Positions 4,691 to 48,930 of a DNA stretch of 64,000 bases are shown one piece after another. The position numbers were made by a program, and so were the translations under genes. Under the pieces are notes generated by a model. That model was not told the origin of the DNA. It saw nothing but the letters and a program-made list of their open reading frames with translations, and searched no databases. The stretch is from Oceanibaculum nanhaiense (GTDB taxonomy: Bacteria; Pseudomonadota; Alphaproteobacteria; Oceanibaculales; Oceanibaculaceae). The first letter of the stretch is position 1. The number at the start of each line of letters is the position of its first letter. The stretch is taken from the NCBI RefSeq assembly GCF_002148795.1, contig NZ_MPOB01000008.1:1-64000 (forward strand), written 5' to 3'.

Positions 4691-5681
4691 GGCGCGCCGC
4701 CATCTCGCCCGCCATCCGCAAGGCAGCCAGCAGGCTGGATTCGTTGGCCTTCCCGGTGCCGGCCAGGTCCAGCGCCGTGCCGTGATCCGGCGAGGTGCGG
4801 ATGAAGGGCAGGCCCAGCGTCACATTCACCCCGCCATGGAAATCCAGCGTCTTGATCGGGATCAGCGCCTGATCGTGATACATGCACAGCGCCGTGTCAT
4901 AGCCACGTCGCGCATCCTCATGGAACAGCGTGTCGGCGGACAGTGGCCCGAAGACCTCGATCCCGTCCTCCCGCAGTGCTGCGATGGCCGGGGCGACGAT
5001 CTCCACATCCTCGCGCCCGATGGTGCCGCCCTCCCCGGCATGCGGGTTCAGGCCGGCAACCGCGAGGCGCGGGCGCTCCAGCCCGAAATCGCGGCGCAAC
5101 GCCGCCGCGGTGATACGCCCGGCGGAAACGATCAGCTCGGTCGTCAGCAGCGCCGGCACGCTGGCCAGCGGCACATGCACCGTCACCGGCACCACGCGCA
5201 GCTGCGGGCAGGCCAGCATCATCACCACATCGACGCCGCCCGCCAGATACGCCAGATAATCGGTGTGCCCGGCATGGACGAAGCCGGCCTGATAGAGCGT
5301 CTGTTTCTGGATCGGGTTGGTGACCACGGCCCCGGCCCTGCCCGCCCGCACCAGTTCGACCGCGTAGTCGATGGCGCGGATCACAGCCGGCGCATTCGCC
5401 GGATCGGGCCGCCCCGGCACGACCGGCACGGCCAGCGGCACGGGCAGCACCGGCAAGGCGGAGGCGAACAGGCCGATGGCCTCCTCCGGCGCCGCGATGG
5501 CCGCCACAGGAACAGTGACGCCGATCTGCGCCGCCAGCGCCGTCAGCCGCTCGGGATCGTCCAGCAGGAAGAAGGGGACTACTCCCCCCTCGCCGCGCCT
5601 GAGCCAGGCCTTCAGCGCAATCTCGCCCGCAATCCCGGCGGGTTCGCCCATGGTGAGGGCAAGCGGCAAGGCGGCCGGCAT
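4668..5681 (-). CDS. pdxA: 4-hydroxythreonine-4-phosphate dehydrogenase
   Basis: 337 residues. PdxA oxidises 4-phospho-hydroxy-threonine in the DXP-dependent pyridoxal phosphate pathway. The three zinc-ligand regions of the family are visible: HAGHTDYLA, the NPHAGEGG segment and MYHDQALIP near the C-terminus. The gene starts 3 nt downstream of the surA stop and overlaps rsmA, so all three are probably one transcript. Length and motifs are normal. Confidence 0.95.
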
Positions 5682-38422: not shown

Positions 38423-38845
38423 TTACGCCACCGTCAGCGAGACCTCGATATTGCCCTTGGTCGCATGCGAGTACGGGCACACGACATGCGCCTTTTGCAC
38501 CAGATCCTCGGCGGTCTTCCGGTCGAGGCCCGGAATGGCGATGGTGAGGTCGGCCTTGATGCCGAAGCCCTGCCCGTCATCGCGCGGGCCGATGCCGATC
38601 GCCGCTGTGACGCTGGTATCCTCCGGCACCTTCACCTTCTCCTTGCCGGCGACGAATTTCAGCGCGCCCAGGAAGCAGGCCGAATAACCGGCAGCGAACA
38701 GCTGCTCCGGGTTGGTGCCGTCACCGCCGCCGCCGCCCATCTCCTTCGGGGTGTTCAGCTTGACCGAGAGGGTACCGTCCTTGGTGGCCGACTTGCCGTC
38801 ACGGCCGCCGGTCGAGGTTGCTTCCGTGGTGTAGAGGATTTTCAT
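38423..38845 (-). CDS. ohr: Organic hydroperoxide resistance protein
   Basis: 140 residues of the Ohr branch of the OsmC family. Both redox cysteines are present: C57 in SACFLGAL and C123 in VVCPYSHA. It reduces organic hydroperoxides in the cytosol. ATG 38845 gives the canonical start [14 protein letters not shown], with AGGAGAG upstream. It is divergent from a two-Cys OhrR-type regulator across an AT-rich operator. Confidence 0.95.
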
Positions 38846-38923
38846 GATGTCTCTCCTTTCGCCTGAATTATCGGGAATGCCTGTTCGATACCCGTCTGAT
38901 GACAGGAACATAGGGCGTCATTT

Positions 38924-38952
38924 ATATTGTGTCCAATATAATTTTGCACAAT
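38924..38952. promoter_or_regulatory. Candidate OhrR operator
   Basis: The ohr/ohrR intergenic region contains an island of AT-rich sequence with nested inverted repeats: ATATTG-TGTC-CAATAT (38924-38939) and ATTGTG ... CACAAT (38926-38952). OhrR proteins bind AT-rich palindromes of this kind between the divergent genes. Confidence 0.65.
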
Positions 38953-39026
38953 TTATTTGCCAGCAACCCTTGCCATCCTCAGCCGGCTTCCCTAATGAAG
39001 GAGGGTTGAGGACAGAGGCAGAAAGC

Positions 39027-39506
39027 ATGAACGCGAAACGGGACGAAAAGACGGCAGCGCCAGAAGCGGACATGCTGCGGCTGGATCAGCAGCTTTGTTT
39101 TGCCGCCTATTCCACAGCGCACGCCTTCAACCGGCTGTACCGGCCGCTGCTGGAAAAGCTGGACCTGACCTACCCGCAATATCTGGTGATGCTGGTGCTG
39201 TGGGAGCGCGACGGGCTGACCGTCACGCAGATCGGCGAGCGGCTGTTTCTCGATTCCGGCACACTGACGCCGCTGCTGAAGCGGCTGGAGAACGCCGGCC
39301 GCATCGCCCGTACCCGCGACCCCGCCGACGAGCGCCGGGTGCTGATCACCCTGACCGGGGACGGCCAGGCGCTGCGCACCGAGGCCCGCTGCATCCCGCC
39401 CCGGATCGGCGCGGCCCTCGATATGACGCCGACGGAGCTGACAGCGCTGAAATCCGGCCTCGACAAGCTGCGCACGGCGCTGAACGGAGAGGGAGGCTCC
39501 GAATGA
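39027..39506 (+). CDS. ohrR: MarR-family organic peroxide sensor, OhrR type
   Basis: 159 residues. The winged-helix MarR fold is clear ([25 protein letters not shown], by segment; [13 protein letters not shown] wing). The peroxide-sensing Cys is C24 ([11 protein letters not shown]) and a second Cys is C122, matching the two-Cys OhrR type. It is expected to repress ohr and itself until oxidised. ATG 39027 is used; the frame is open to 38844 but crosses the operator. It overlaps the following DUF488 gene by ATGA. Confidence 0.92.
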
Positions 39507-41862: not shown

Positions 41863-42450
41863 ATGTCGAACCGCAAAGCGCCCGTCGATCATCCGATCCT
41901 GCCGTTGATGCAGGAGCGCTGGAGCCCGCGCGCCCTGACCAACACCGCGATCCCGGCGAACACCGTGCTGACCCTGCTGGAGGCCGCGCGCTGGACGCCC
42001 TCGGCCAGCAACATCCAGCCCTGGGGCTTCATCATCGACGAGGCCGGCAGCGCCAGCTTCGCGCAGACGCTGACCTATCTGAAGCCGGGCAATTTGCCCT
42101 GGGCGCGCAACGCCGCCTTGCTGGGCGTCGCCCTGGTGAACGAGAACCGGCCGGACGGCACGCGCAACCCGCATGCCGAATATGATGTCGGCCAGGCGGT
42201 CGCCTACCTGACCCTGCAGGCAGCATCCGAGGGGTTGTATGTGCACCAGATGGCGGGTTTCCTGCCGGAGAAGGTACAGGAGCATGCCGGGCTGCCGGAA
42301 GGCTGGCGCGCGCTGACCATGTTCGCCATCGGCGGGCTGGGCGACGCGGCGAGCCTGCCGGAGGAGATCGCCCAGCGCGAGACCGCGCCGCGCGTGCGCA
42401 AGCCGATGGCCGAGTTCTGCTTCCGCGGGACATGGGGCAAGGCGCTCTGA
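41863..42450 (+). CDS. Nitroreductase family protein
   Basis: 195 residues of the FMN-dependent nitroreductase fold: RWSPRAL near the N-terminus, TPSASNIQPWGFI and the C-terminal PRVRKPMAEF. It reduces nitro-compounds, quinones or related electrophiles with NAD(P)H; the physiological substrate is unknown. A good AGGAG lies upstream. It ends at an intrinsic terminator (42474-42505). Confidence 0.87.
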   Translation: MSNRKAPVDHPILPLMQERWSPRALTNTAIPANTVLTLLEAARWTPSASNIQPWGFIIDEAGSASFAQTLTYLKPGNLPWARNAALLGVALVNENRPDGTRNPHAEYDVGQAVAYLTLQAASEGLYVHQMAGFLPEKVQEHAGLPEGWRALTMFAIGGLGDAASLPEEIAQRETAPRVRKPMAEFCFRGTWGKAL

Positions 42451-42473
42451 CCGGCAACTGAGTCCATAAGGGG

Positions 42474-42505
42474 CGGGAGCCGGCCCTGCCGGTTCCCGTC
42501 TTTTT
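42474..42505 (+). terminator. Intrinsic terminator after the nitroreductase gene
   Basis: CGGGAGCCGG pairs with CCGGTTCCCG (one G-U) over a 5-nt loop and is followed by TCTTTTT. This is a textbook rho-independent terminator. Confidence 0.9.
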
Positions 42506-42585
42506 ACGCCCCCTTTTGCGCCCCTGCACATCGCCGCCGCACACCCCATATCAAGGACATCGACCACCAGCGGCGGAAGGATGAG

Positions 42586-43029
42586 ATGAGCTACGCCAAG
42601 ACCAAGGAAGCCATCGCCCGGCTGACGCCCGAACAGTACCGGGTGACGCAGGAGAACGGCACCGAACGCCCCTTCACCGGCGAGTACAACGACAACAAGG
42701 CACCCGGCCTCTATGTCGATATCGTGTCCGGGGAACCGCTGTTCGCCTCCTCCGATAAGTTCGAATCGGGCTGCGGCTGGCCCAGCTTCACCAAACCCAT
42801 CGTACCGGCGCATGTGGCGGAGCTGCGCGACACCAGCCACGGCATGGTCCGCGTCGAGGTGCGCTCCGCCCATGGCGACAGCCATCTCGGCCATGTCTTC
42901 GAGGATGGGCCGCGCGACCGCGGCGGCCTGCGCTACTGCATCAATTCCGCATCGCTGCGCTTCATCCCGCGCGACCGCATGGCGGAAGAGGGCTATGAAG
43001 AGTATCTCGACCAGGTAAAGGAGAGCTGA
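42586..43029 (+). CDS. msrB: Peptide-methionine (R)-S-oxide reductase
   Basis: 147 residues. The catalytic Cys is in [12 protein letters not shown] and the resolving Cys is likely in SGCGWPSF. The two CXXC pairs that bind structural zinc in most MsrB proteins are missing ([11 protein letters not shown] and [12 protein letters not shown] instead). It therefore belongs to the zinc-less subgroup. It repairs R-methionine sulfoxide. msrA starts 1 nt after its stop, so they form an operon. Confidence 0.93.
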
Positions 43030-43030
43030 C

Positions 43031-43537
43031 ATGACCGAAACCGCAATTCTGGCCGGCGGCTGCTTCTGGGGCATGCAGGATCTGATCCGCCGGCAGCCCG
43101 GCATCCTCTCGACCCGCGTCGGCTATACCGGCGGCGACGTGCCGAACGCAACCTACCGCAACCATGGCAGCCATGCCGAGGGCATCGAGATCGTCTTCGA
43201 CCCGGCCATCACCAGCTACCGCCGCATCCTGGAATATTTCTTCCAGATCCACGATCCGACGACGCCGAACCGCCAGGGCAATGATGTCGGCCCCTCCTAC
43301 CGTTCGGCGATCTATTATCTGAGCGAGGAGCAGAAGCGCGTGGCGCTGGACACCATCGCCGATGTGAACGCCTCCGGCCTGTGGCCCGGCAGGGTGGTGA
43401 CGGAGGTGGAGCCGGCCGGCGATTTCTGGCAGGCCGAGCCGGAGCATCAGGATTATCTGGAGCGCATCCCCAACGGCTATACCTGCCACTTCCCGCGCGC
43501 CAACTGGGTGCTGCCGAAGCGTAGCGCCGCCGAATAA
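43031..43537 (+). CDS. msrA: Peptide-methionine (S)-S-oxide reductase
   Basis: 168 residues. The catalytic GCFWG motif is at residues 10-14 and the supporting [12 protein letters not shown] and RSAIYY segments are intact. It reduces S-methionine sulfoxide. It is encoded directly after msrB. No terminator T-tract follows; instead GGGGCGGA/TCCGCCCC can pair across an A9 run at the start of the next promoter. Confidence 0.95.
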
Positions 43538-43570
43538 AGGGGCGGAGTAAAAAAAAAGTTCGGGCGCGCG

Positions 43571-43597
43571 TGTCACATTCCGCCCCTCTGTCTCGTC
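43571..43597 (+). promoter_or_regulatory. ECF41-type promoter
   Basis: TGTCACA (43571-43577), a 16-nt spacer and CGTC (43594-43597) match the ECF41 consensus TGTCACA-N16-CGTC. The match is 44 nt upstream of the decarboxylase gene whose operon encodes the ECF41 sigma factor itself, so the operon is probably autoregulated. Confidence 0.82.
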
Positions 43598-43641
43598 AAG
43601 CAGGCATCGACCCTGTTTACCTGACGAGAAGGAAGCGAAAG

Positions 43642-44100
43642 ATGACACCGCGTCTGAACAATCCGCACGGCCTCGGCACCGGCCCGATCAAGGCCATGGT
43701 GGCGCTGGAGGGGGCCCTGTCGAAATGCAGCCTCGACCATGGGCTGCTGGAGCTGGTGAAGCTGCGGGCCTCGCAGATCAATGGCTGCGCCTTCTGCATC
43801 CACATGCATTCGACCTGGCTGCGGTCCTCCGGCGAGAGTGAGATGCGCCTCTACATGCTGAACGCCTGGCGCGAATCCTCGCTCTACACAACGCGCGAGC
43901 GCGCCGCCCTGGCCTGGACCGACGCGCTGACCCTGCTTGCCGAAACCGGCGCACCGGACGAGGATTACGCTCTGGTAAAGGCCGAGTTCAGCGAGGAGGA
44001 ACAGGTGGACCTGACCATCGCCATCGGCGCCATCAATGTGTGGAACCGGCTGCAGGTCGGCTTCCGCGCCGCGCATCCGGTGGATAAGGCGGCCGCTTGA
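43642..44100 (+). CDS. Carboxymuconolactone decarboxylase family protein (AhpD-like)
   Basis: 152 residues. The AhpD-type redox motif is present as CAFCIHMH (CXXC plus His). This is the C member of the COE group (carboxymuconolactone decarboxylase, oxidoreductase, epimerase) that accompanies ECF41 sigma factors. It probably works as a thiol-dependent peroxidase or peroxiredoxin partner rather than a true decarboxylase; that is inference. AAGGAAG lies 8 nt before ATG 43642. It overlaps the sigma gene by TTGA. Confidence 0.88.
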   Translation: MTPRLNNPHGLGTGPIKAMVALEGALSKCSLDHGLLELVKLRASQINGCAFCIHMHSTWLRSSGESEMRLYMLNAWRESSLYTTRERAALAWTDALTLLAETGAPDEDYALVKAEFSEEEQVDLTIAIGAINVWNRLQVGFRAAHPVDKAAA

Positions 44101-44975
44101 GCCATCAGGCCGCCCTCACCGGCCCGTTCGAGGCGCAGCGGCCGCGGCTGCTGCGTCTCGCCTACCGCATGCTGGGCTCCCGCGCGGAATCCGAGGATAT
44201 CGTGCAGGAGGCCTGGCTGCGCTGGCAGGCCGCCGACCGCAGCAGCGTCGCAGAGCCGGCGGCCTATCTCAGCCGCATCGTGACCCGGCTGTGCCTGGAT
44301 GCGCTGAAATCCGCCCGCGCACGGCGCGAGACCTATATCGGCCCCTGGCTGCCGGAGCCGGTCGCCGAACCGCCGGAAGAGGAACCCCGCGCCGACGAGC
44401 TGACCCTGACCCTGATGCTGGCGCTGGAGCGGCTGTCGCCGCTGGAGCGCGCCGCCTTCCCGCTGCATGACGTGTTTGCGGTGCCGCTGGGCGAGATCGC
44501 CGCGACGCTGGAACGCGAGCCGGCCGCCGTGCGCCAGCTGGCCGCGCGCGCCCGCCGGCATGTGCGCGAAGCCCGGCCGCGCTACGCGGTCGGGCGGGAG
44601 GAAGGCGAGCGGCTGGCCCGCGCCTTCTTCGATGCCTCCTCGAAGGGCGATGTGCAGGCATTGAGCGCCCTGCTGGCCGAGGAGGCGGTGCTGCACGCCG
44701 ATGGCGGCGGCAAGGTGATCGCCTTCCACAACCCGATCATCGGGCTGGCGCGCATCCTGCGCCTCTATGCCGGCCTGCGGCGTAAATACAGCCCCGAGCA
44801 GATCGTGCTGCTGCGCCCGCTGCGCATCGACGGGCTGCCCGGCTATCTCAGCCGCGAACGCGACGGCATCCTGCAGACCACCGCCTTCGACATACGCGAC
44901 GGCCGCATCGCCGCCATCTACATCACCCGCAACCCGGATAAACTCGCCCGGCTGGTGGATGAGGTGGGGGTGTGA
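44097..44975 (+). CDS. ECF41-family RNA polymerase sigma factor with SnoaL-like C-terminal domain
   Basis: 292 residues. Sigma region 2 (RLAYRMLGSRAESEDIVQEAWLRW, by segment) and region 4 (LSPLERAAFPLHDVF) are followed by a SnoaL-like extension. All three ECF41 signatures are present: WLPEP (84-88), DGGGK (202-206) and NPDKL (279-283). No anti-sigma gene is nearby; in ECF41 factors the C-terminal domain controls activity. The start is TTG 44097 within the stop of the decarboxylase gene, so it is translationally coupled. Confidence 0.93.
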   Translation: MSHQAALTGPFEAQRPRLLRLAYRMLGSRAESEDIVQEAWLRWQAADRSSVAEPAAYLSRIVTRLCLDALKSARARRETYIGPWLPEPVAEPPEEEPRADELTLTLMLALERLSPLERAAFPLHDVFAVPLGEIAATLEREPAAVRQLAARARRHVREARPRYAVGREEGERLARAFFDASSKGDVQALSALLAEEAVLHADGGGKVIAFHNPIIGLARILRLYAGLRRKYSPEQIVLLRPLRIDGLPGYLSRERDGILQTTAFDIRDGRIAAIYITRNPDKLARLVDEVGV

Positions 44976-45013
44976 AATGCAAAACTCAATTTCTGAGTAT
45001 TATCTAACTGTGT

Positions 45014-45544
45014 TTAGGTGAGTGAGCGGGGATGAATCTCAACCAACCTTCCCCTGCGGTCAGCAACGCTATTGCGAAAAGCGGCAACGACACCTCTCTC
45101 AACCGCAGAGGAGTCCACAATGCAAGCCGTCATGCCGGAAATTCTCTCATCAGAAAACCACTGCTCGAACTGGTCGAGGCCACCAACTCGCCCTAGCGGT
45201 TTAGGCTCGAAAGAATTTAATCGTAACATAACAGCTTCAATATAGTTCATCGACCGATGATGAAAATAACTCATGATAAACTTATGATCAAAATGTGGCT
45301 TAGGGAAAACCGGCCTACCACGTAAATCGATTATCGTCTTAATGGAATTTTTAGCAAGAACGCCCAAAAGAACATTCTGATCTATATTATCCAAAGTTAC
45401 GAATACAATAGATGCGATCTTCTCATAAGCTCCAGTGAAAAGATCGAGCTGCTGAGGATGAAGTCCATCTACTATCACACGTTCCGAAAGCTCATTCTTC
45501 GAGGCCGATGTGATAGGGAAGCTCAGTATGTTATTCTCCCGCAT
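45014..45544 (-). CDS. Small unknown protein with a degenerate DUF488-like pattern, partner of the deaminase
   Basis: About 176 residues, not a recognised named protein. Residues 62-103 (LAKNSIKTIIDLRGRP ... PHFDHK ... MNYIE) resemble the DUF488 first half: a helix, a strand, then D-R-R-P (IDLRGRP at 72-78). The C-terminal part (ACIVDSSAVERGVV, around residue 141) resembles the DUF488 CxxxxCHR segment with the CHR reduced to VER. ATG 45544 is chosen for AAGG 9 nt upstream; ATG 45550 and TTG 45565 are also possible. It overlaps the deaminase stop by 14 bp, so the two are translationally coupled. Function unknown. Confidence 0.7.
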   Translation of the reverse strand: MRENNILSFPITSASKNELSERVIVDGLHPQQLDLFTGAYEKIASIVFVTLDNIDQNVLLGVLAKNSIKTIIDLRGRPVFPKPHFDHKFIMSYFHHRSMNYIEAVMLRLNSFEPKPLGRVGGLDQFEQWFSDERISGMTACIVDSSAVERGVVAAFRNSVADRRGRLVEIHPRSLT

Positions 45545-47216
45545 CGACATGAGCCTTAGTCTCAAATTCTGGAATCAGTTTGACTGCCTCACGCTCTACA
45601 GCATCTAGCTCGCGCAGCCTAACCGCATAGAAGGGCACTCCTCCCCTCTTAGGTGCATATCGACCATTCGATTCTTTGATCTCACCCCGCTTGACGAAAA
45701 AATCTTCATACATCCGTGGGCCAACACCAGTGTATGGAACGACCGCCATCTTGGTCTGAGCCCGAGCTTGCTCCGATCCAGAACCGAAGGCTGGCAATTC
45801 GCTTACTATAGCATCGGAATGGAGTTCGCAGGCGAGGCTTTTAGTATAAGGTTCGATAAAGTAAACGCGTGACACGCCGGCCGCCACGAGATGCCGAGCG
45901 CAATTATGGCACGGATAAGTTGTTACGTAGAGTGATGAATTGACGGTCTTTGCACCCGAACGGGCTGCCGCCAATAGCGCCGTCATCTCAGCGTGTATTG
46001 CACGCGAATATTCGATTGCATCCTTAACGCCAGGCATATCACGGAGCCTAGATGACACAGAAGTCAACACGTCACTAACTTTAGCCGAAACCGTTTCTCT
46101 CGATTCCGCAGCCAGATCTTTTCCCATCACTTCATCTAGCGGCACGAGCTGTTTGGCGATGTCATCAGAAAGATTCTCGGCCATCCACATGGCAATCTTC
46201 TCGTAGAGCTCGTGCTTTTTTCGATCATTATGGCAGCCGATAAACGTTCCTTTCTCGGAATCAAACTCCCAAGCGAAACAACGATTGTCTGGATTGGAAT
46301 CGCCATCGTATATCCCCCCACCGAACTTAGGGGGGTCGTTAACCCCCGTGGCAATAAGTGTCCCATCAGGCGACATAAGAGCGGCACCAACCTGACGCGA
46401 AAGACATGCAGACTGAAGAGAGGCCGCATAAGCGTGATAAATCGCGCGTTCACCGCTCGTTGGACGAACCAATTGCTCATCAAGCAATAAATGAATGAAC
46501 CGATCAATGTCGACATTCATCGCCGCTCCACTGGGCGAGTCGCTCGTATTGTCGAGAAAGAAATCCGCGAGATGGAAGGCGTCGCGAACGCGTTGCCCAT
46601 ACTTGTGTTCGTCGTCCTTCGCGTCGCGCCGCATAAAGTTGACAACTTTTTCCCGAGGAACTCCCCCATACTTCACGCCTTGGACCTTCGTTCCAATCAA
46701 GCGCTTTTCGCGCTTGGACTCGTCACAATGAACCGCGACCAGCCGGAACGAGAGGTCATACACCTGCCGCAAGAGATGCACCTCCTCAGGATGCTTGAGC
46801 GAGTCAAGTACAAAGGCAAGTTTGCTCTCACCCGGCGTAGCTTCTCCCCGAGCAGCCTTGATTTTAGTGATGACGGCGACAGCCAAGGCATGCCCACCAT
46901 AATCTTTGCGTAATTTATCGCCGAGATTTTGTAGCTCAGAAGCTCTCTGAAAGCGCGTCAAACCCTCGTTCGCACCCTCTACGATTTCTGGAAGCTTAGG
47001 ATCCAAAATTTGTATAATTAGATTGCTTAGCTTAACCGGTACAACTGTGTAACCAGCTTCCTCCAGCATAACGCAAATACGCTTACCCGCTGTGGATGTT
47101 CCTGCACCAGCGTGGCCTACAACACCGATCACTAACTCTTTAGACGTCGGCGAAATATTAGCGATGTCGGGCAAAGACGCGTCATTAGCGGCGGTCATCT
47201 TCGGTTTAGTCGCCAT
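45531..47216 (-). CDS. P-loop/deoxycytidylate deaminase fusion, anti-phage AvcD/DcdV type
   Basis: 561 residues. The N-terminal P-loop domain has GHAGAGTSTAGK (34-45) with Thr where the classic Walker A Lys would be, and the FVLDSLKHPEEV segment (135-146) typical of this family. The C-terminal dCMP-deaminase domain has zinc ligands HAE (H408, catalytic E410) and PCHNC (C436, C439). Members of this architecture deplete deoxycytidine nucleotides during phage infection. The gene is AT-rich compared with its surroundings. It is followed, overlapping, by the 176-residue unknown gene. A housekeeping dCMP deaminase is unlikely given the length and fused P-loop. Confidence 0.87.
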   Translation of the reverse strand: MATKPKMTAANDASLPDIANISPTSKELVIGVVGHAGAGTSTAGKRICVMLEEAGYTVVPVKLSNLIIQILDPKLPEIVEGANEGLTRFQRASELQNLGDKLRKDYGGHALAVAVITKIKAARGEATPGESKLAFVLDSLKHPEEVHLLRQVYDLSFRLVAVHCDESKREKRLIGTKVQGVKYGGVPREKVVNFMRRDAKDDEHKYGQRVRDAFHLADFFLDNTSDSPSGAAMNVDIDRFIHLLLDEQLVRPTSGERAIYHAYAASLQSACLSRQVGAALMSPDGTLIATGVNDPPKFGGGIYDGDSNPDNRCFAWEFDSEKGTFIGCHNDRKKHELYEKIAMWMAENLSDDIAKQLVPLDEVMGKDLAAESRETVSAKVSDVLTSVSSRLRDMPGVKDAIEYSRAIHAEMTALLAAARSGAKTVNSSLYVTTYPCHNCARHLVAAGVSRVYFIEPYTKSLACELHSDAIVSELPAFGSGSEQARAQTKMAVVPYTGVGPRMYEDFFVKRGEIKESNGRYAPKRGGVPFYAVRLRELDAVEREAVKLIPEFETKAHVDAGE

Positions 47217-47382: not shown

Positions 47383-48930
47383 TCACTCCCACTCGATTGT
47401 TCCCGGGGGCTTGGAGGTGATGTCGTAGGTCACGCGGTTCACGCCTTTCACCTCGTTGATGATGCGGGTGGCGACGCGCGACAGGAATTCCATGTCGAAA
47501 TGGTAGAAATCGGCGGTCATGCCATCGACCGAGGTGACGGCGCGCAGCGCGCAGACGAACTCGTAGGTCCGCCCATCCCCCATCACGCCCACGGTCTGCA
47601 CCGGCAGCAGCACGGCGAAGGCCTGCCAGATCGTATCATACAGCCCCGCATTGCGGATCTCGTCGAGATAGACGGCATCGGCCTGGCGCAAGATATCCAG
47701 CTTCTCCCGCGTGATGCCGCCGGGGCAGCGGATGGCGAGGCCCGGCCCCGGGAAGGGGTGGCGGCCGACGAAGCGGTCGGGCAGGCCCAGCTCGCGGCCC
47801 AGCGCGCGCACCTCATCCTTGAACAGCTCGCGTAAGGGTTCCACCAGCTTCATGTTCATGCGCGCGGGCAGGCCGCCGACATTATGGTGCGACTTGATGG
47901 TCACGCTCGGCCCCCCGGTGAAGGACACACTCTCGATCACATCCGGGTAGAGCGTGCCCTGGGCCAGGAAATCGGCGCCGCCGATCTTCTTCGCCTCGGC
48001 CTCGAACACGTCGATGAACAGCTTGCCGATGGTCTTACGCTTCAGCTCCGGGTCGCTCTGGCCTTCCAGCGCGCCGATGAAGGTGTCGCTGGCGTCCACA
48101 TGCACCAGCGGGATGTTGTAGTGGTCGCGGAACATGGTCACGACCTCTTCCGCCTCGTTCAGGCGCATGAGCCCGTGATCGACGAACACGCAGGTCAGCT
48201 GGTCACCGATCGCCTCGTGGATCAGCAGGGCCGCCACCGAGGAATCGACGCCGCCCGACAACCCGCAGATCACGCGGCCGGAGCCGACCTGTTTGCGGAT
48301 CGCCTCCACCGCCTGCTGGCGGAACGCGGCCATCGTCCAGTCGCCTTTGCAGCCCGCCACCTTCAGCACGAAATTATGGATCAGCTTCGCGCCGTCCGGG
48401 GTGTGCACCACCTCCGGGTGGAACATCAGCCCGTAATAGTGCCGCGCCTCGTCCTCGATCAGCGCATAGGGCGCGTTCTGCGACAGCCCCTTGACCTGGA
48501 AGCCGGGCGGCAGCTTGGTGATGCGGTCGCCATGGCTCATCCACACCGTGTGCTTCTCGCCCACCCCCCAGAAGCCCTCGAACAGGCCGGAGGGCGCCTG
48601 CACGTCGAGCAGCGCGCGGCCGAATTCGCGGTGATGGCCGCTCTCCACCGTGCCGCCAAGCTGTGCCGCCATGGTCATCTGGCCATAGCAGATGCCGAGC
48701 AGCGGCACGCCCATGTCGAACACCAGCTGCGGCGCGCGCGGGCTGCCTTCCTCCGCCGGGCTGGCCGGCCCGCCGGACAGGATGATCGCCTTGGGATCGA
48801 AGTCGCGGATGCGCGCGGGATCGACGTTGAACGGGAAGATTTCGCAATAGACGCCGGCCTCGCGGACCCGCCTTGCGATGAGCTGCGTGACCTGGCTGCC
48901 GAAATCGAGAATCAGGATGCGGTCTGTCAT
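47383..48930 (-). CDS. guaA: GMP synthase (glutamine-hydrolysing)
   Basis: 515 residues. The class I glutamine amidotransferase domain with GICYGQM (catalytic Cys) comes first, then the ATP-pyrophosphatase loop GLSGGVDSS and the C-terminal dimerisation domain ending in PPGTIEWE. It converts XMP to GMP. guaB is encoded 780 nt upstream in the same direction, separated by a GNAT gene. Its 3' end borders the AT-rich insert and appears intact. Confidence 0.96.

Follow-up and report, generated by a model that had tools for sequence, protein, structure and literature searches.

A predicted autoregulated CMD–ECF41 sigma factor operon of Oceanibaculum nanhaiense

Organization of the locus

The window that we analysed is a 64,000-nucleotide stretch of DNA from Oceanibaculum nanhaiense, in a genome of 3.84 Mb. 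On its forward strand, positions 43571–43597 (TGTCACATTCCGCCCCTCTGTCTCGTC) match the ECF41-type promoter motif TGTCACA-N16-CGTC exactly, with TGTCACA as the −35 box, a 16-nt spacer and CGTC as the −10 box; the motif search in the window allowed spacers of 14–18 nt. After a further 44 nt follows an AhpD-like gene of the carboxymuconolactone decarboxylase (CMD) family (43642–44100, forward strand, 152 residues), assigned by PF02627 and TIGR00778, and then a gene for an ECF41/SigJ-type sigma factor (44097–44975, forward strand, 292 residues), assigned by NF007214 and Pfam. The two genes overlap in the tetranucleotide TTGA (44097–44100), in which the TTG start codon of the sigma factor gene meets the stop codon of the CMD gene. 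The ATG start of the CMD gene at 43642 is kept in seven relatives. A mechanical ORF call places this start at the GTG at 43570; it is not credible because the reading frame from there runs through the promoter, and it was rejected in favour of the conserved ATG.

Upstream, on the same strand as the operon, lie msrB, for methionine-R-sulfoxide reductase (42586–43029; TIGR00357, 202.9 bits), and msrA, for methionine-S-sulfoxide reductase (43031–43537; TIGR00401, 159.9 bits), which ends 33 nt before the promoter. Since both genes are upstream of the ECF41 promoter, they are not transcribed from it and are neighbours outside the predicted transcription unit. A divergent ohr–ohrR pair, encoding organic hydroperoxide resistance and a MarR-type regulator, is located at 38423–39506, about 4 kb upstream of the promoter.

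Immediately 3′ of the sigma factor gene, the reverse strand encodes a deaminase-domain protein (PF00383; 45531–47216), which scores 485 bits against the PADLOC dCTPase anti-phage model. An ORF of 183 residues on the same strand (45014–45565), with no Pfam or PADLOC match, overlaps the deaminase gene by 35 nt and may encode its partner. This spot (45014–47216) is adjoined by guaA (47383–48930). The corresponding downstream place in O. pacificum (L102, 2954–3964) holds an ABC-three-component CTD12 protein of a defence-type family, and the spot may be an exchange site for defence genes.

The sigma factor and the CMD protein

The sigma factor is clearly of the ECF41/SigJ type, as judged by its score against the NCBIfam SigJ model NF007214 (377 bits, cut-off 271) and by its fold match; its score against the SigX4 model TIGR02957 (309) is below the cut-off of 323. 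Pfam detects Sigma70_r2, Sigma70_r4_2 and SnoaL_2, the last at 27.6 bits, just above the cut-off of 27. The first two are the only sigma domains found, which fits an ECF41 factor without sigma3. Members of this group further carry an extension of about 100 residues at the C terminus, with a SnoaL-like domain and conserved motifs. The best named relative, from O. pacificum, is 95% identical. Three motifs are located in the protein: WLPEP (residues 84–88) in the sigma2–sigma4 linker, DGGGK (202–206) and NPDKL (279–283). In an alignment of 35 sequences (the window and 34 of 80 named relatives), the W, the L and both prolines of WLPEP are invariant and the glutamate is nearly so; DGGG and NPDKL are also invariant, and Lys206 nearly. 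WLPEP is spelled out as an ECF41 motif in PMC3426412, the text of which does not contain NPDKL; the names DGGGK and NPDKL are those of the earlier note.

The AlphaFold2 model of the sigma factor has a mean pLDDT of 82.5 and a pTM of 0.76. Its best PDB match is SigJ of Mycobacterium tuberculosis (5xe7; E 2e-17, TM 0.73–0.77), which is also the best match by sequence (4.9e-49) and likewise consists of sigma2, sigma4 and a SnoaL domain; SigJ differs in having DSNGK in place of DGGGK and shares only about 34% identity. Further matches of the model are SigG1 (7qh5), then ketosteroid-isomerase and other NTF2-like folds, which fit the C-terminal extension. Genome-wide, one strong ECF41 match was obtained (6e-187), and the other four matches are at 4e-11 or weaker. 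One of these weaker, ECF-like matches, at C3:269597 (E 7e-7), spans query residues 14–253 and contains an internal stop.

The CMD protein matches PF02627 at 4.6e-15 (Pfam) and TIGR00778 ahpD_dom at 48.3 bits, and its solved relative is 2gmy (3.4e-45). It carries the residues E37-X11-C49-X2-C52-X3-H56, which we take to be the AhpD motif, with CAFC at positions 49–52 as the CxxC expected of an ECF41-linked CMD protein. It probably acts as a peroxidase that depends on thiols or as a disulfide enzyme.

An earlier note on this DNA had described an ECF41 sigma factor with the three motifs and a SnoaL-like domain, a co-encoded AhpD-like gene and the lack of an anti-sigma factor. The domains and motifs given above, and the stop codon of the AhpD-like gene overlapping the sigma start, bear out the first two points. 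As for the third, Pfam recognized no anti-sigma domain in the eight proteins scanned, namely the two of the operon and six neighbours, among which the product of 45014–45565 is without a Pfam match.

The msr and ohr neighbours

The locus is very probably an ordinary ECF41 operon, in which the CMD and sigma factor genes would be expressed from their own promoter, with positive feedback and SnoaL control. Another reading would tie ECF41 to msr and organic-hydroperoxide repair, its signal being the same oxidative damage that is dealt with by msrBA and ohr, and we consider it unlikely. It draws on the clustering of ohr, ohrR, msrB and msrA with the operon within 6.6 kb of the window, on the msr genes beside ECF41 in two further lineages, on the AhpD-type cysteine pair of the CMD protein and on O. 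pacificum (G318), where ohrR and ohr lie directly upstream of the ECF41 operon. It also agrees with the slightly higher H2O2 sensitivity of an M. tuberculosis sigJ mutant (Hu 2004, cited in PMC3426412) and with a review according to which some ECF41 members protect in oxidative stress (PMC8103513). Against it, H2O2, cumene and t-butyl hydroperoxide and paraquat gave no significant difference for the R. sphaeroides and B. licheniformis mutants reported by Wecke 2012 (PMC3426412). A literature text search returned no paper combining ECF41 with 'methionine sulfoxide reductase'.

The conservation of these neighbours was compared in four genus genomes, in 80 named loci, which were picked by similarity, and in 57 class loci taken from 385 evenly sampled genomes of the class (52 non-genus matches above the family cut-off and five of nine weaker ones, at E 5e-58 or better). 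The named loci L002 and L003 are apparently the genus genomes G318 and G236. First, msrBA adjoin ECF41 in two of the four genus genomes, that of the window and G135. The other two, G318 and G236 (91% and 93% complete), gave no msrB match and only a 45–46% identical msrA elsewhere; the upstream place in G236 is taken by a metallo-hydrolase. Within flanks of 4–6 kb per locus, where contigs allow, two named loci outside the genus (L008 and L054) and none of the class loci yielded an msr gene, so that 78 of the 80 (L002 and L003 included) and all 57 speak against the tie. Second, the placement of ohr–ohrR relative to the ECF41 operon varies across the four genus genomes; ohr is 50 kb away in G135, and neither ohr nor ohrR occurs near ECF41 at any non-genus locus of the two samples.

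The two further lineages with msr beside ECF41 show other arrangements. In Stella vacuolata (L008), msrA lies within about 0.1 kb downstream of the ECF41 gene on the same strand, where it could be a third operon gene or stand behind a terminator; the stretch between the two genes (4858–4961) holds a G+C-rich palindrome. In Geminicoccus (L054), msrBA are divergent from ECF41, and the ECF41 site faces the sigma factor gene, away from msrB. An exact ECF41 site pointing at an msr gene was found neither in the window nor in L054, which also counts against the tie.

The recurrence in Oceanibaculum, Stella and Geminicoccus might be taken to point to oxidised methionine or a hypochlorite-type stress as the missing ECF41 signal, a reading that is improbable. 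Across 58 class genomes there are 50 PF01641 rows and 60 PF01625 rows, the latter from 59 genes because one gene is split, or about one gene of each family per genome. With 3.2 kb considered at each locus and a genome size of about 4 Mb, hand arithmetic gives roughly 0.1–0.2 chance msr neighbours in about 140 loci, against the three lineages seen. This excess carries little weight: the estimate was made after the cases had been seen, one of the three lineages prompted it, and similarity had guided the choice of the named loci. When 3,928 ORFs of 139 loci were compared with one another by blastp, with L002 and L003 omitted as duplicates of L102 and L101, the recurring genes were CMD, other genes preceding the sigma factor gene and many antisense ORFs. 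In Burkholderia cenocepacia, the CMD gene BCAL3214 is up 35-fold under NaOCl (PMC2830190). The msr recurrence in three lineages is the only lead beyond published work that we found, and a weak one.

The oxidative-repair neighbours come and go, and they do not identify the ECF41 signal. The earlier note had considered the locus informative because it stands next to peroxide-repair genes. These genes are msrB and msrA, which adjoin the operon; they are outside its transcription unit, however, and the adjacency is not conserved (two of four genus genomes, two of 80 named and none of 57 class loci), so the case for the locus as a clue to the signal is weak. The locus brings the signal little closer, since its suggestive neighbours lack conservation.

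The promoter and its conservation

In shuffled sequences, the exact motif is expected 0.07 times in the window. The whole genome contains one exact N16 match and the reversed control also one, a number that chance could give. Where the site lies and how well relatives keep it do go beyond chance and indicate a real promoter. In eight aligned sequences, those of the window and seven relatives with differing surroundings, the −35 and −10 boxes are invariant. All four genus genomes have an exact site, and in three of them the 27 nt are identical. Exact sites within 2.6 kb upstream of the sigma factor gene on the same strand are present at 72 of the 80 named and 36 of the 57 class loci, and with one mismatch allowed at 78 and 53, respectively. 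Even then no site is obtained for L021, L049 and L127, whose upstream sequence amounts to 132, 348 and 0 bases, or for L149, L150 and L158; L158 has an exact site on the other strand. In total, the 137 loci (1.31 Mb; either strand, with the N16±1 spacing of ECF41 promoters, 15–17 nt) hold 129 exact sites versus four for the reversed motif.

Some loci of Aureimonas, Methylobacterium, Rhizobium, Ancylobacter and others (L020, L023, L024, L028, L029 and similar) have two sense-strand ECF41 sites, roughly 2.0 and 1.4 kb upstream of the sigma factor gene. One precedes a distant CMD gene and the other about 1.4 kb of other coding sequence adjoining the sigma factor gene.

A chance match, with the operon expressed from another promoter, e.g. 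through read-through from msrBA, is very improbable. In its favour are the roughly one exact match that each genome should hold by chance, the nearby end of msrA and a search of 42400–45100 that gave no terminator-like site on the forward strand. Against it, the search of this region gave no sigma-70-like promoter either, and the invariant boxes amid differing surroundings, the sites shared by the genus genomes and the 129 sites against four all argue for a promoter.

The predicted regulon

With one mismatch allowed, the genome of the window contains 14 sites, compared with 22 for the reversed control. A wider regulon was rejected for want of any excess over this control. Among the 13 sites other than the promoter, 12 are inside ORFs of at least 100 residues on both strands and one (L093) on one strand, a crude test that high G+C makes permissive. 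By eye, the genus search revealed no second site clearly shared by the genome of the window and the genus genomes. G135 has a second exact site at C2:242464.

The regulon is thus predicted from these searches to be the CMD–sigma operon alone, with positive feedback. COE genes, which encode a CMD protein, an oxidoreductase or an epimerase, are the only ECF41 targets known to PMC3426412, where two other ECF41 factors are described with a single-operon regulon. Such a small regulon does not hold for all members, because the Azospirillum ECF41 factor RpoE10 is reported to control lateral flagella (PMC12826043). The exact motif that the earlier note had placed upstream of the AhpD-like gene is at 43571–43597 and conserved in relatives, and the genome search that it proposed for defining the regulon recovered only the CMD–sigma operon. 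Its description of an autoregulated example is probably right, via a shared transcript from the cognate promoter.

Comparison with published ECF41 systems and proposed mechanism

We compared the locus with RSP_0606–RSP_0607 of R. sphaeroides and ydfG–ecf41 of B. licheniformis (PMC3426412). All three have neighbouring CMD and sigma factor genes, a TGTCACA-n16-CGTC site, the WLPEP linker, a C-terminal extension, no anti-sigma factor and a single target, which in the present case is predicted. The 5′UTR is 31–32 nt in the two published systems (PMC3426412, Table 5) versus about 35–39 nt predicted here. Unlike in those systems, msrBA are located upstream and the TTG start of the sigma factor gene overlaps the CMD stop codon. 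In Sinorhizobium meliloti, the CMD gene SMb20029 is similarly upstream of the ECF41 gene rpoE9 and probably co-transcribed with it; the CMD gene is the sole RpoE9 target found, and its mapped start bears the ECF41 motif (PMC6180224). The 107 published loci share this layout, with the promoter before the COE gene in 97 (PMC3426412, Table 4).

In the proposed mechanism, RNA polymerase with this sigma factor would start at TGTCACA-N16-CGTC and transcribe the CMD gene and then, through the overlapping TTGA junction, the sigma factor gene. We infer co-transcription of the two genes, and the single transcript would make autoregulation by positive feedback probable. The CMD gene would be the output of the operon. 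The fused SnoaL domain would restrain the sigma factor and presumably change conformation on a small-molecule or redox signal; a separate anti-sigma factor would not be needed because this domain holds the sigma factor in check. SnoaL control is proposed by homology and is supported by the work of others in relatives. Experiments in R. sphaeroides and B. licheniformis addressed both the single target and the role of the C-terminal extension: truncating part of the extension increased activity about 120-fold and 20-fold, respectively, and deleting all of it abolished activity (PMC3426412). According to a 2022 review, the extension inhibits by contacting the linker until a conformational change, probably upon ligand binding, releases it (PMC8999054).

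In summary, the earlier observation is correct and concerns a known kind of system: among published ECF41 loci with a COE gene, this layout is the commonest. The operon is a clean copy of a unit already described, lends itself to testing and is useful as an extra example for promoter logos or the choice of orthologues.
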